Shown here piece after piece: positions 6,181 to 51,550 of a DNA stretch of 64,000 nt. Made by a program: the position numbers and the translations under genes. A model generated the notes under the pieces. It had not been told where the DNA came from. It worked only from the letters and a program-made list of their open reading frames with translations, and made no database searches. How positions within the stretch are numbered: position 1 is the first letter of the stretch; each line of letters opens with the position of its first letter. The stretch is from Prorocentrum cordatum. Lineage: Eukaryota; Sar; Dinophyceae; Prorocentrales; Prorocentraceae. The DNA lies in NCBI GenBank assembly GCA_963575745.1, contig CAUYUJ010019104.1:41900-105899 (forward strand), given 5' to 3'.

Positions 6181-6225
6181 GTGGAGGACTGGTCCTCCGC
6201 CGGCGACGTCAAGTACCACCTCGGT
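6181..6225 (+). CDS. OGDH: OGDH visible exon 2 (GDVKYHLG motif)
   Basis: After CAACCAG the frame reads VEDWSSAGDVKYHLG. GDVKYHLG is a signature of E1 of 2-oxoglutarate dehydrogenase, just before the conserved NPSHLE segment. Joins in phase 0 to exon 1. The 3' border is uncertain: a GC donor at 6226, a GT donor at 6224, or extension through GCGCAG to 6231 are all possible, because the next short exon was not found. Confidence 0.88.
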
Positions 6226-18900: not shown

Positions 18901-19000
18901 NNNNNNNNNNNNNNNNNNNNNNNNNNNNNNNNNNNNNNNNNNNNNNNNNNNNNNNNNNNNNNNNNNNNNNNNNNNNNNNNNNNNNNNNNNNNNNNNNNNN
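18901..19000. other. Assembly gap (100 N)
   Basis: Exactly 100 unknown bases, a conventional scaffold gap. The sequence directly to its right is a 90-bp tandem repeat, so the gap probably marks a collapsed repeat. Confidence 0.99.
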
Positions 19001-25878: not shown

Positions 25879-25883
25879 TGGTA

Positions 25884-26051
25884 CGGTGGGGGCGTTGGTT
25901 GAGGAATGTGCCCAGGAGGCTTCAGACCCTGGGGGATTCCTTATCTGATGAGGAGGGCGGTGATATCCATGGCCGATCCACGATTGGAGTTCCACTGGCC
26001 TCCAGACCCTGGATTCCTTATCGAAGGCTTCCTTGTCCAATGCCCCCACCG
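25884..26051 (+). mobile_element. 168-bp TIR element, copy 2
   Basis: CGGTGGGGGCGTTGGTTGAGG at the left and CAATGCCCCCACCG at the right; same length as the copy at 1033-1200 and alignable throughout (GCTTCAGACCCTGG, TTCCTTATCTGATGAGG, GTCCAATGCCCCC). The left flank is TA; the right flank was altered when the retrocopy inserted at its very end. Confidence 0.8.
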
Positions 26052-26053
26052 CG

Positions 26054-26075
26054 TCCGTAGCCATTTTGGCTCAAG
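26054..26075 (+). other. Dinoflagellate spliced-leader sequence embedded in genomic DNA
   Basis: Begins TCCGTAGCCATTTTGGCTCA and ends AG: the 22-nt DinoSL consensus is matched at every position, with T at the variable first base. It is followed by CCTGTG and not by a GT donor, so it is a retroposed mRNA end and not an SL RNA gene. Confidence 0.97.
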
Positions 26076-26116
26076 CCTGTGTTCCGCCCGCTTCAGCGCG
26101 CGCGGGACCGCTTGGG

Positions 26117-27073
26117 ATGGCACGGGCGGAGTCGCCCCATTGCGGCGATTCCAGCATAGAAGCATGCGGCCGGCGATCGAGAGCGACGCGGACGGCAGCA
26201 CGGAGGAGGGCCTTGGTGGCAGCCGACGCGGGGCTTGCAGCAGCTCGTGCTCAAGTTCGAGCACTCGAGGAGCAGCTGCGGCACAAGACGTCGGAGTTCA
26301 ACCAGCTGCTGCGGCATCTGGGCTACGGGGATCACCCTGACCCTCATGCAGACGAACTGCGCCAGCGGTGGATGGGCATCAAACCGGTTCTTCGAGCCCA
26401 GATCGAGGCCCGCGATGGCGTGGCGGCCGCCCCGCTCACCGACGTGGACATCCTGCGGCGGAATGTTTCTGAACATTCGGCAGTCGCGCCACGGGCGGCG
26501 GCCAGCGGCAGGGAGCTCAGGCGCTTCCAGAAGTCCGCGAGGCTGGCGCCGCCGCGGGCGCTGCGGCAGGAGGCGCGCGGCGTGCAGCTCCGCAGGGAAA
26601 GCCCAGCTTTCATTCCAGGTGCGGGAAGCTGGGAGCCGTTGCACGGCATGGGCGAGGCGGCGGCTGGCCTGCGCTGCACATGCGGCGCGGTGGTCTACAG
26701 CCAGTGGGAGCCCTTCGATACGAAGACGCTCGGCAAGGACGGCCAGCACGCGCAGCTTCTCGGCAGCGAGCAGAGCATCGGCAGTTGCGAGATGCAGGAG
26801 ACGCTCGACGGCCTCACGGAGGACCAGGGCAGCCAAGGGGACGGCGGTGCCGATCCCGAGATTGGGCAGCAGTGCATCGCGCGCGATGACGAGGAGCTGC
26901 TGCAGGAGGACTACCTGCAGAGAAGCTGGACTGGACGGCCTCGGCCCACAGGCTTCTGCTGGTTTCTGCAGAGGCCACGGGCCAGCAGCCGTTCGTACGG
27001 CGGCGTGCGCGCCTGGATCGAGAGCGCCGCGACCGTGACGTCGCCCAGCTCTGCGCCTCGTTCATGGAGGTGA
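26117..27073 (+). CDS. Intronless ORF of the spliced-leader retrocopy, 318 aa, unknown function
   Basis: The first ATG after the spliced leader opens a 318-codon frame to TGA at 27071-27073. The N-terminus is basic. Residues around 40-75 (AAARAQVRALEEQLRHKTSE) have heptad spacing for a coiled coil, followed by FNQLLRHLGYGDHPDPHADE. The middle has RCTCGAVVYSQWEPF and the later part is acidic (GLTEDQGSQGDGGADPEIGQ). No catalytic motif or signal peptide is evident and I do not recognise the family. The start is chosen because it is the first ATG of the fossil transcript. The C-terminal 40 residues look less regular and might reflect a frameshift. Whether it is transcribed inside the OGDH intron is unknown. 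Confidence 0.7.
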   Translation: MARAESPHCGDSSIEACGRRSRATRTAARRRALVAADAGLAAARAQVRALEEQLRHKTSEFNQLLRHLGYGDHPDPHADELRQRWMGIKPVLRAQIEARDGVAAAPLTDVDILRRNVSEHSAVAPRAAASGRELRRFQKSARLAPPRALRQEARGVQLRRESPAFIPGAGSWEPLHGMGEAAAGLRCTCGAVVYSQWEPFDTKTLGKDGQHAQLLGSEQSIGSCEMQETLDGLTEDQGSQGDGGADPEIGQQCIARDDEELLQEDYLQRSWTGRPRPTGFCWFLQRPRASSRSYGGVRAWIESAATVTSPSSAPRSWR

Positions 27074-27197
27074 TAGGGTGGTGAGCGGGCGCCGCGGGGC
27101 CCCGCGGGACCCCGCGCTGGTCCCGCGGCTGTGAATGCGTGCATGAAACCGCCGTGCTCGCGCGGTGCCTACATAGATAAAAAAATGCCCCCACCGC

Positions 27198-42413: not shown

Positions 42414-42468
42414 GAAGCTGGCCGCATGGTCATGCCCGTCATCATTCATGGGGACGCCGCGTTTGCAG
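42414..42468 (+). CDS. OGDH: OGDH visible exon 5 (thiamine-diphosphate loop HGDAAFAG)
   Basis: EAGRMVMPVIIHGDAAFA plus one base of the next Gly codon. HGDAAFAGQG is the start of the thiamine-diphosphate and Mg-binding motif of E1. The exon stops inside it: GCAG|GACCGC, a GA donor. With GA of exon 6 the codon becomes GGA (Gly) and the motif continues QGVVYE. Phase 0 at the start, phase 1 at the end. Confidence 0.95.
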
Positions 42469-48182: not shown

Positions 48183-48273
48183 CCCGTCCTCATTCCTGCA
48201 CTCCGCCTTCCGTTCTTCACGTTCTTCCCATTCCTTGATCTGCTCTTTCTGTGGAGACACCCGTTTTTTTCAG

Positions 48274-48935
48274 GACAAGGTGTTGTGTACGAGGCCATGC
48301 AGCTCTCTGGCGTTGTTGATTTCAACGTCGGTGGCACCATCCACGTCATCATCAACAATCAGGTTGGCTTCACAACAGCCCCCGAGAACGCAAGATCCAC
48401 CTTGTACTGCTCGGACCTCGGCAAGGCCTTCCGGCTGCCCATCTTCCACGTCAACGGGGACGATCCAATGGCGGTGGTGCGCGCTTTCGAGCTCGCCGCC
48501 GAGTGGCGTCAGGACTGGGGGGAGGATTGTATCGTTGACGTTGTCTGCTACAGGCGGTTCGGCCATAACGAGAGCGACAACCCAGAGTTCACCCAGCCAT
48601 TGCTGTATCGGGAGATCAAGCGGCACAAGAGGACAGAGGAGATCATGGCCCAGAGGCTCGTCGAAGATGGTCACGCGACAGCGGACCTGCTCGACGCGAT
48701 CAAGGCAGGGGTCTGGAGCCAGTACGAGAAAGATTTCGAGGCGGCGCGGACGTACAAGCAGAGACCGACATCGCATTGGGTGCCGACCAAGTGGCAGGGC
48801 ATGCGATCCCCCAACGAGGTCTCCCAGAGAATGCCCACGGGTGTGGACGCGCGCCTGCTGAGGGAGATCGGGCTGCGATTGTGCGACGTGCCCGCCGGCT
48901 TCGAGCTCCACGGCAGCCTCACGCGGATCCTGAAG
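48274..48935 (+). CDS. OGDH: OGDH visible exon 6 (thiamine-diphosphate and central domain, 662 bp)
   Basis: The largest exon. After one Gly codon split with exon 5 it reads QGVVYEAMQLSGVVDFNVGG, TIHVIINNQVGFTT, RSTLYCSDLGKAFRLPIFHV, NGDDPMAVVRAFELAAEWR, DVVCYRRFGHNESDNPEFTQ and PLLYREIK, all E1 landmarks. NNQVGFTT completes the cofactor-binding motif and GHNESDNP is the conserved active-site region. It continues through the less conserved helical part (SQYEKDFEAAR) to FELHGSLTRILK. Donor AAG|GTCGG, phase 0. No frameshift across 220 codons. Confidence 0.98.
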
Positions 48936-49138
48936 GTCGGACCGGACGAAACGGCATGGTAGGGAAGAGGACGGCTACGAAATCTGCTGCATGCAGCTGG
49001 TTTCCGCCCTGCCGCCGGGCCTACGCCTCGAAATACGGGCGCCTCCCGGCGCCAGGAGGCGCCAGGCTAATCAGCTACGTAAGTTGATTGTCTACCCTGC
49101 CCTTTGCTGTCCTACCCTCTTGGCCCCCCCCCGAGAAG
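48936..49138 (+). other. OGDH: OGDH intron 6 (GT-AG, 203 bp)
   Basis: CTGAAG|GTC at the donor and GAGAAG|GCC at the acceptor. GC-rich, pyrimidine-rich toward the end. No relative was found elsewhere in the window. Confidence 0.95.
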
Positions 49139-49260
49139 GCCAAGCGCCAGCGCATCGAGGACGGCCGCGGCCTGGACTGGGCCACGGCGGAGAGTCTCGC
49201 CGTCGGCTCGCTGCTACTCGAGGGCTGCCACGTGCGGCTGACGGGCCAAGACGTGCAGAG
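49139..49260 (+). CDS. OGDH: OGDH visible exon 7 (DWATAES)
   Basis: [20 protein letters not shown], then [20 protein letters not shown] plus two bases. Corresponds to the E1 segment x-D-W-A-x-A-E-x-x-A-x-G-S-L-L-x-E-G-x-x-V-R-L-S/T-G-Q-D. Ends CAGAG|GTCGG in phase 2; with exon 8 the codon AGG gives the Arg of RGTF. Confidence 0.98.
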
Positions 49261-49664
49261 GTCGGCGGCCAGCCCTGGGGATGTGTGGAAGTTTCTGGAG
49301 TTTCGGGTTCGAAGTTCGAGGACTTCGGGCGTCGTCGTCGGTTCTCGGCGGCTGTCCAGCCTCGGGATGCGCTCCAGCGGCTGCGCCTCGCCGAGGGCGT
49401 TCCCGGCTGTGCCCAAATCGTTTCGAACGGCCACCGGAGGATACCGGAGGGCCAAGTTGTGACAGAGAAACCACCAGGCGTCCGAGACGAGGCGGGCCTT
49501 CTCAGAATGCTCGGAAGCCCCCCGGGCCTTCCGAGGAAGTTTTCTACGCCTTCCCAGGAGACGCAGACAGCTTCTCAGAAGGCCGGAGGGTTTCTGAAAA
49601 GTCCCGCCGCCTTCTGAGAGGGCCTTCTCCTGCTTGCTTCCCCCCCTCGCTCGCCGCCGAAGAG
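49261..49664 (+). other. OGDH: OGDH intron 7: introner-like element (404 bp)
   Basis: GCAGAG|GTCGGCGGCC at the donor and CTCGCCGCCGAAGAG at the acceptor. The right end CCCCCCCTCGCTCGCCGCC and the preceding 140 bp (GGCCTTCTCAGAA...AAGTCCCGCCGCCTT) match the right half of the free element at 61505-61939. The left end GGCGGCCAGCCCTGGGG is a diverged version of that element's left end. The element begins and ends within a few bases of the splice sites. Confidence 0.88.
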
Positions 49665-49711
49665 GGGCACCTTCTCGCATCGCCACTGCGTCGTCCACGA
49701 CCAGGTCAACG
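49665..49711 (+). CDS. OGDH: OGDH visible exon 8 (RGTFSHRH, 47 bp)
   Basis: With the AG from exon 7 it reads [16 protein letters not shown] plus one base. G-T-F-S-H-R-H carries active-site histidines of E1. A very short exon, phase 2 at entry, phase 1 at exit, with a GC donor (AACG|GCGCGGAG). Confidence 0.97.
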
Positions 49712-49920
49712 GCGCGGAGCTCAGCTGCCCTCATACGCACGTCTCTACACGCAGCACGTGCCGTGCTCAGCGCGTCCGTGTCAACACGGTGCGTGTTGGC
49801 TCGGCACGTGTTGGCCCGCGTTTTGGCGAACGTATCGCGCCAGACTTACGTGTTCAGTCCACGTGTCGAGCTTCGTGCCAACACGCTACAGGTTGGGTGT
49901 TGCGTATCGGGGCGGCGAAG
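49712..49920 (+). other. OGDH: OGDH intron 8 (GC-AG, 209 bp) with 8-bp junction repeat
   Basis: GCGCGGAG stands at the intron start and again at the start of exon 9, preceded by G in both places. The interior resembles 52185-52378 (GCTCGGCACGTGT; GTGCCAACACGCTAC versus GTGCCAGCACGCTCC; TTGCGTATCGGGGC versus TTGCGCATCGGGGC), so this intron belongs to a repeat family. Confidence 0.92.
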
Positions 49921-50099
49921 GCGCGGAGTACACCTTTCTCAACGAGCTCCACCTCGGCCCGCAGGAGACATTCGTGGCCCGCAACTCCATCCTCTCCGAA
50001 CTGGCCGTGCTGGGCTTCGAGCTCGGCTACAGCTACGAGAGCCCGAACGCGCTGTCGATCTGGGAGGCGCAGTTCGGGGACTTCGCCAACAATGCCCAG
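49921..50099 (+). CDS. OGDH: OGDH visible exon 9 ([13 protein letters not shown])
   Basis: Completes Gly, then [54 protein letters not shown] and AQ. S-x-L-S-E-x-x-V-L-G-F-E-x-G-Y-S and [11 protein letters not shown] are strong E1 signatures. Ends CCCAG|GTC in phase 0. Confidence 0.98.
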
Positions 50100-50874
50100 G
50101 TCATGATCGACGGCGGCGACGACGATGACAGGACATGACGATGATTAACTTCTGGGGTCGACGACGACGCCGATGACTGGCTGGCGAGGGCGACGACGAC
50201 TGACGACGACGACGACGACGACGGCCACGAAAAACAACGGCATAACCATTTTTGGAGATCCGCGCGGATTTTTCGGATCAACGCTGGACAGCCTTAAGTT
50301 GGGCCTCTCCCTCTACAGGAGGAATATTCTAACATAGTACAAAATAGCCTGGGGACCATTCTTTGAGTATTGTTTGAATAGTTTTGAATATGTTTAGGGT
50401 ATCAAATTTTGTTCATCCAAACTCCCCGTGTAAGGGAACACGCCCGACCTAGGGACAGCCCTCCCTCTCCCTGGCGCGCGGGGCGCGCCATCGGTGGCGC
50501 CAGAGGCACTGCCACAGGGGGTCACGCGCAGGTCCGCGCGGACCTCCAAAAGTCAGGAGGGAAAGAACACATACACAAGTAATCGTCGATTCCGCAGTAA
50601 ATATTGGGAAATATGGGAAGTCGGGGGGAAGACGTAGACCCAGAAAGTATGGTGAAACCTGGGATTTGTGTCTATTTGTTTGTGTGTCCCTGGGCCCCTT
50701 TCGTTTCTTTCTCTGAGGTCATGATGCCCTCCGACGGGGCACTGCCAGCAGCGCCAAGCAATTATGGTAGGGACCTGCGAAGAGGGACCTCGGAGGGAGG
50801 GTTTACTGCAACACCGCTGATGCGCCTGGTCCTCGTCCGCCTCCTCATGCTCCCCTTCCTCCTCCACCCCTGAG
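50100..50874 (+). other. OGDH: OGDH intron 9 (GT-AG, 775 bp) with 12-bp junction repeat
   Basis: GTCATGATCGAC follows AG at both the donor and the acceptor side. A third partial copy (GAGGTCATGAT) lies at 50716-50726. Inside are a CGA-triplet stretch, a complete GGGC foldback element (50301-50448) and a sub-block (50560-50715) with ends resembling those of intron 12. Confidence 0.94.
50301..50448 (+). mobile_element. Foldback element family GGGC, copy E (in intron 9)
   Basis: GGGCCTCTCCCTCTACAGG at the left, CCCCGTGTAAGGGAACACGCCC at the right, followed by GACCTAGG; interior ATGTTTAGGGTAT is shared with copy B at 21081. Confidence 0.8.
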
Positions 50875-51033
50875 GTCATGATCGACCAGTTCGTGTGCTC
50901 GGGCGAGCACAAGTGGCTGCAGCAGTCGGCCCTGACGATGCTGCTGCCGCACGGCTACGACGGGCAGGGTGCCGAGCACTCGTCCTGCCGCCTGGAGCGG
51001 TTCCTGCAGCTCTGCGACGACGACGAGGACGAC
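50875..51033 (+). CDS. OGDH: OGDH visible exon 10 ([10 protein letters not shown])
   Basis: [53 protein letters not shown]. Matches D-Q-F-x-x-S-G-E-x-K-W and L-L-P-H-G-Y/F-x-G-Q-G-x-E-H-S-S-x-R-x-E-R-F-L-Q-L-C. Donor drawn at GAC|GTGCC (GT). A GA donor after GAG (51027) would give a CGAG|GA repeat with the acceptor and is equally in phase. Confidence 0.97.
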
Positions 51034-51550
51034 GTGCCTCTTTTCACGCAGGACGAAGAAGAAGAAGCAAGGGCATAAGCAGATGGTCGACCCGCATGAT
51101 AAGGATGGGCAACCTTCCCAAGGGTACCCCTGCATCCTTGCCCCTTCGGCCCATCCTTGGCCACTTTCGTTGGCCGCGCCCCGCTCGAGAAGCTTCGAAA
51201 TGGCCATACAAGGCCCTTGCATCCTTGCCGTGCATCCTTGTGATATGGGTCGACTGTACAGCCGTTGGCGGGAAAACGCACACCAGGCATAGTGCACAAC
51301 GCTGCTGTGTTCAGAACCCCCGTGCCCCCCAATTTCAGTATTGAAAATGGCGCTGCCTTGGCGGTGGAACTTTGGGCGTTTGCGCTCCGACAGCGGCCGC
51401 TCACGCGACGTTGAAATGGGGTGTCCAGGGGGCGGCACCGTCGAAGCAACGTCTGCGGATGGGCGTTCTTTGCGCCAACAGCGGTGCGCTTTCGAAGCTC
51501 CGCGGAGAGCTCCGAGAGTCCATGTGTATGCAGGCGTTGTTGTCCCCGAG
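51034..51550 (+). other. OGDH: OGDH intron 10 (517 bp)
   Basis: Ends TTGTCCCCGAG. It contains CCATCCTTG / GCATCCTTG repeats (51120-51240) and TTTGCGC/GCGTTTGC fragments. No gene. Confidence 0.88.

Follow-up and report, generated by a model that had tools for sequence, protein, structure and literature searches.

How messenger RNAs headed by a spliced leader (SL) return to a dinoflagellate genome, and whether they land at random or at a chosen sequence, is the question raised by a short unit in a 64,000-nt stretch of Prorocentrum cordatum DNA (the window). Dinoflagellates are said to recycle mRNAs into the genome at large scale, and section 7 of PMC6050394 calls the enzyme unknown and favours LTR elements as more likely, with the words target and insertion absent from that section. 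For viral insertions that carry an SL tag in Symbiodiniaceae, LINEs have already been proposed on the strength of LINE genes close by, with no target site given (PMC10235124), and the available portions of PMC12014239 and PMC11453091 report no target sequence. The evidence set out below indicates that a sequence-specific non-LTR retrotransposon probably primes on the right ends of terminal-inverted-repeat (TIR) elements, also taking other SL-RNAs.

The window unit is a real, nearly textbook retrocopy, and all of its parts lie on the + strand. It adjoins a MITE-like TIR element of about 170 bp (25883–26052), recognized by the complementarity of its arms (25884–25906 and 26029–26051, 83%), by its relatives and by the genome-wide count of its right end, which is the target. 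By direct reading, the last 14 bp of the element (26039–26052) are the first copy of an exact target site duplication, AATGCCCCCACCGC, repeated at 27184–27197; a single extra G (26053) separates the first copy from a complete 22-nt dinoflagellate SL, TCCGTAGCCATTTTGGCTCAAG (26054–26075), which is followed by 41 further nt of 5′ UTR. Frame reading gives 318 codons from an ATG at 26117 to a stop at 27071–27073 (26117–27073), after which come a 3′ UTR of 105 nt terminating in ..CATAGAT (27074–27178) and a run of seven A (27179–27185), whose final two are the first two As of the second duplication copy. A full SL at the 5′ boundary, an A-tail at the 3′ boundary and a target duplication, i.e., the marks by which an SL-mRNA retrocopy is recognized, are thus present together. 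An initial annotation of this DNA had already described the exact 14-bp duplication, the 22 intact leader bases, the A-run—although it is just seven A long—and the end of a TIR element (there given as 168 bp) as target, all of which are borne out.

Within the window, the SL 21-mer has one match when up to three mismatches are allowed (none in 100 shuffles), and the 14-bp duplication has just two exact matches and, with up to two mismatches, five matches against 1.06 expected. An Rfam scan of the window gave 0 matches. The TIR family has a further right end at 1178–1201, which reads CCAATGCCCCCACCGT, continues into ATACTAG and carries no SL, and positions 18901–19000 are a 100-N assembly gap.

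Downstream of the insertion and on the same strand are coding pieces of 2-oxoglutarate dehydrogenase (OGDH) E1 (48249–51075), with matches to PF00676 (E1_dh) in 48249–48959 (E 2e-38) and to PF02779 in 50884–51075 (E 3.6e-9), as well as + strand words at 42450, 48561, 50061, 50974 and 51602 that we take to be OGDH-like motifs. Since the sole such word upstream, at 6208, is weak, the insertion is likely, rather than proven, to lie inside the gene in an apparent intron and not merely upstream of it; of the proposed placement in an OGDH intron, the shared orientation stands and the intron position is likely. Introns of P. cordatum are rich in inverted-repeat elements (PMC10666404), and the window element, like introners and other dinoflagellate TIR elements, is a TIR element in an apparent intron, but here it is the landing site and not, as in introners, the mobile cargo.

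A search of the genome (4,128,499,153 bases in 21,875 contigs) with the 1130-bp unit, in which 40 of 167 first-look candidates were scored, returned 17 copies at least 97% identical among those 40: 15 of whole length (1–1130), one covering 1–1006, and one of 883 nt (1–883) beside an N gap. Two further partial copies cover 755–1129 and 975–1131 of the consensus. Copies differ from the family consensus at 3 to 24 of 1131 columns and the window copy at 10, gap columns included, which agrees with its description as young. The multi-exon parent that had been expected was found nowhere among the 40 scored candidates, in an assembly that may be incomplete: the 17 best matches are contiguous, and none of them is split into exons. 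Absence of a parental locus had been named beforehand as refuting retroposition; retroposition nevertheless holds, because independent insertions carry their own duplications.

The position of these insertions is far from random. Ahead of 14 of the 17 copies, the upstream flank is occupied by a diverged relative of the window's TIR element, oriented alike and always with its right end toward the copy (14/14), and in 12 of those 14 the element ends no more than 3 bp from the SL; in L034 the right end sits behind a TG repeat, and in L040 the TIR match stops 14 bp early. No TIR match was found upstream of the remaining three (L038, L043 and L047). Flanks are similar in one of 136 pairs of copies downstream and in 88 of 136 upstream, and the 25 longest upstream similarities listed fall in the TIR element stretch. 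Duplications of 13–16 bp with the same start, directly after ..TTATCC or variants of it, flank 12 of the 15 full-length copies; in four of these 12 the two repeats differ by one mismatch. By eye, the truncated copy L048 has the same target site, which was not seen at the truncated copy L049. Recurrent insertion at one sequence with fixed junctions, as is characteristic of target-specific non-LTR retrotransposition, is therefore present, and while the unit remains an SL-headed, A-tailed, full-length retroposed mRNA, as first annotated, the sharing of the TIR end by 14 of 17 sites shows that it did not arise singly at a target hit by chance. The element itself is repetitive: 39 other relatives were scored at 89–92% (out of 5530 first-look candidates), and its exact right-end consensus, TTCCTTATCCAATGCCNNCACCGT, occurs 595 times in the genome (reversed control, 0). 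On the reverse strand of L039 (about 930–1500), a tandem array of TIR-end-like units of ~85 bp contains an mRNA1 copy (mRNA1 being the transcript of the window family); farther upstream in the array lies the 3′ terminal part of a diverged relative, and both are accompanied by an A-run and AATGCCCTCACC.

The same association extends beyond this family. Exact SL/TIR-end junctions number 105 genome-wide and exact A7/TIR-end junctions 80, with reversed controls of 0 in both cases, and the window family contributes seven of the 100 SL junctions listed. When an SL junction is paired with an A junction no more than 12 kb away, strand, order and duplication variant all match in 25 of 25 pairs (by chance the variant would match at 0.28 per pair, and some of the 25 share an SL), and the pairs cover 21 of the 100 listed SL junctions; one more pair on a common contig, separated by 64 kb, has the wrong order and differs in variant. 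The other 79 have no exact A7 partner, for which the strict pattern, longer inserts and decay may account. A sample of 20 (the first junctions listed, C170 left aside) contains 12 leader groups by ungapped comparison and about nine kinds by eye, 16 of the 20 with an intact 21-mer. The leader groups overstate the variety of transcripts, since some leaders (L104, L117 and L120, by eye) resemble diverged relatives of the window gene. Other transcripts at TIR ends may include some LINEs.

Insertions also follow one another at one site. An SL junction stands directly behind an A-tail junction in six of the 100 listed cases, and at L044/L082 an mRNA1 copy and a second SL-mRNA of 2.4 kb lie in series between three copies of AATGCCATCACCG. 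At C19299:39477-43895 one SL junction is followed by three A-tail/TIR-end junctions ~1.45–1.5 kb apart, apparently serial insertions.

The G at 26053, which had been proposed as a record of the mRNA cap, has no counterpart in most sibling copies, where no extra base precedes the SL. In the 100 listed junctions the letters between the target core and CCGTAG are T in 59, TT in 20 and TTT in 2; immediately ahead of the SL T stands G in nine, A in four and C in two, and four lack the T. Where no SL follows the right end, A comes next in 15 of 19 cases (by eye), so that G before the SL is in excess. A cap-derived G is possible in a minority of junctions; the window G by itself proves nothing.

The most probable account of these junctions runs as follows. 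The window unit arose when a polyadenylated mRNA headed by the SL was inserted by target priming into an old TIR element, at its right end. A sequence-specific LINE-type endonuclease would nick the bottom strand as 5′-..GGGGGCATT^GGATAAGGAA, and the freed ..ATT 3′ end would pair with the A-tail of the RNA and prime reverse transcription; a second nick 13–16 nt away, at the element terminus, would yield the duplication AATGCCNNCACCGT. The RNA may come from the LINE itself, as an SL-headed transcript, or may be a different SL-RNA picked up in trans. Because the duplication rebuilds the target, further RNAs could then insert in series. The nick positions, the in-trans step and the source of the enzyme are what we infer here; the site, duplication, A-tail, orientation, different leaders and serial junctions are read from the assembly itself.

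Whether the cargo is host mRNA at all is the point on which a different reading has to be weighed, namely that the family is a non-autonomous, SINE-like partner of a LINE, its SL-headed RNA being retained for a well-recognized 3′ end (..GATAAAA). Seventeen near-identical copies of an orphan sequence for which no intron-bearing parent was found are what such a partner would leave, and mRNA1 and a second transcript, mRNA2, both terminate in GATAAAA. The predicted protein has no Pfam match (window frame and a sibling frame), nor does the one frame of mRNA2 that was scanned; homologues of the mRNA1 protein number four, two of which are P. cordatum products with no function in their names. Most full-length copies nevertheless retain the family frame. 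The intronless frame from the first ATG is present as first annotated, but the family frame is 322 codons long and is shifted in the window copy, the only one to lack a G at consensus column 863, a 1-bp deletion, so that the description of this copy as complete holds for its length and not for its frame. Twelve of the 15 full-length copies read 322 codons directly, and L040 is only apparently off-frame, its 1-bp deletion falling in the SL; the coding region is therefore free of frame-shifting indels in 13 of 15, the exceptions being L038 and the window copy, and none of 75 coding substitutions creates a stop. Among private changes, 41 are nonsynonymous and 24 synonymous, with no stops, against a spectrum-based expectation of 0.73:0.25, and purifying selection on the copies is weak at best. 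The copy tree is star-like, with 12 of 14 inner branches open in a bootstrap that had not settled, as expected from repeated copying. There are about 80 diverged protein relatives (83 of 118 match rows, the other 35 being near-identical copies), most without inner stops, which also argues against a SINE-like partner, as does the use of the same site by other leaders, though some of these belong to relatives of the mRNA1 gene. We regard this reading as possible but doubtful. Ahead of one diverged relative (L057, about 1317–1370), an SL is followed by two relict SLs in tandem, a record of repeated rounds of recycling; such tandem relict SLs and the intronless SL-headed copy are features shared with dinoflagellate SL-mRNA retrogenes.

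If the insertions are the work of a target-specific LINE, its own copies might be expected at the same site. Nearest SL-to-A inserts cluster near 1.15, 1.45, 5.0, 7.25 and 8.1–8.3 kb, with single inserts of 1.64, 1.90, 2.40, 4.24 and 9.76 kb; because 12 of the 21 are shorter than 2.5 kb, too short for a whole LINE, RNAs other than the LINE itself have been inserted. One insert of 7.25 kb (C6058:192642-199908) runs from SL to A-tail with the same duplication variant on both sides and contains long frames. In the 3.8 kb of it that were read, a frame of 566 codons open at both ends (L124) is, by coordinates, in phase with one of 577 codons (L123). Pfam matches occur in collinear order—RVT_1 (E 0.043), zf-RVT (E 0.0019) and RNase_H (E 0.22)—all of them under the curated cut-offs, and RVT_1 matches on sub-pieces only, the whole L124 piece giving none. 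By eye, the words FDISKFYERID and VIDDI resemble reverse transcriptase motifs A and C, and NPHAPV upstream resembles the end of an AP endonuclease. For the piece of this insert that was searched, a homologue search returned one short match not named as a reverse transcriptase, and a PDB search just two unrelated oxidases (E about 1). Sequence features are thus suggestive of an SL-headed candidate LINE, and this element or a relative could be the source of the enzyme. Against a LINE origin, the A-tails are short (5–10, by eye), unlike the long tails of LINE-1. L081, the second SL-headed insert of L034, has a LINE-like look but is not counted as a LINE, as the one frame scanned had no Pfam match and no A-tail end was found in 7.3 kb.

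These sub-threshold reverse transcriptase matches, and the fact that the insertions abut a transposon terminus, would fit a model in which the TIR-element transposase makes double-strand breaks that take up cDNA opportunistically, with no sequence-specific LINE endonuclease involved. Breaks of this kind do not predict 13–16-bp duplications with a fixed start, nor, as in all 25 pairs, an A-tail facing the primer end ..ATT, and a transposase should open both ends of its element, yet the right end alone is used in all 14 assigned copies; we consider such capture unlikely.

Ordinary LINE-1-like retroposition of a host mRNA, with a transposon end as target by coincidence, would equally leave an SL, an A-run and a 14-bp duplication. 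It is rejected as very improbable, given that 14 of 17 copies, set in unrelated flanks, all adjoin one particular end of the TIR element, and given 105 SL/TIR-end junctions against none in the reversed control.

A-tails, duplications of this size and 5′ truncation are marks of target-primed reverse transcription, whereas retrocopies made by LTR machinery have no A-tail-primed junction and a short duplication of 4–6 bp. The junctions thus do not have the form expected of an LTR-retrotransposon retrocopy: A-runs and 13–16-bp duplications are present and copy L048 is 5′-truncated, so that a Ty1/copia-type route, suggested in print from expression data (PMC6050394), is hardly credible and is rejected. 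Least plausible of all, and likewise rejected, is the idea that a TIR element captured a retrocopy once and that the composite, or a segmental duplication, then spread, for although an element adjoins the copy at 14 of 17 places, the adjoining elements are 75–90% and the copies 97–99% identical to those of the window, the copy lies outside the TIR pair and the flanks differ.

Insertion at TIR ends is a minority route. Exact SL 21-mers number 14,218 in the genome (reversed control, 0) against 105 at TIR ends, a small share, and one of the first 20 right ends in list order (of 595) directly abuts an SL. Among 30 exact SLs taken in contig order (contigs C1–C3, L001–L030), one is at a TIR end (L022, by eye), and 22 directly follow CCT or GGA repeats and two more another simple repeat, counts that stand without a background control; it is from this comparison that the minority status follows. 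Several diverged relatives of the window gene likewise follow CCT/GGA repeats. This class may have a different origin. In none of the 30 was an A-run followed by CCT/GGA repeats found downstream, and a search for duplications within 1.5 kb downstream of the 30 sites was convincing solely at L030. There, an SL copy of ~1.3 kb with A6 and a 15–16-bp duplication lies at a site other than a TIR end, so that other insertion targets exist.

Target-specific non-LTR elements are known from rRNA genes, SL exons, microsatellites and other transposable elements (PMC8869645). The insertions described here resemble those of R1, R2, TRAS, Tx1L, SLACS/NeSL and the microsatellite-targeting families in their fixed site within a repeat and their duplication, and differ in that the target is the end of a MITE-like element, that the host is a dinoflagellate and that short inserts of other RNAs are present. 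Tx1L reportedly has a specific endonuclease and takes the transposon Tx1D as its target. Processed pseudogenes made by LINE-1 show copying in trans, a duplication, an A-tail and, in some, 5′ truncation; by comparison, there is strong site specificity here instead of a loose nick motif, together with serial insertion at a rebuilt target. In titles and abstract openings, with subscription journals mostly outside this scope, neither a stated target site for dinoflagellate retrogenes nor a link between LINE, SL and MITE was found. What is new is that SL-RNAs differing in their leaders land time after time, also serially, on a single end of a single element, where an SL-headed candidate LINE sits as well.

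The question of the recycling enzyme becomes testable, because one site combines a fixed target and a duplication with an SL-headed candidate LINE. A cut site is predicted and an enzyme proposed as candidate, the insertions can be dated, and strains can be compared at about a hundred exact junctions. If the interpretation is true, a site-specific LINE carries other RNAs in trans, and transcripts accumulate serially at a target that is rebuilt each time. Tentatively, and with slightly less than even confidence, we propose that mRNA recycling is partly directed, an SL-headed LINE bringing various full-length SL-mRNAs to TIR right ends, where intronless genes would stack serially at rebuilt landing pads, also within genes such as OGDH. 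This suggests a route by which dinoflagellates may recycle some of their genes.
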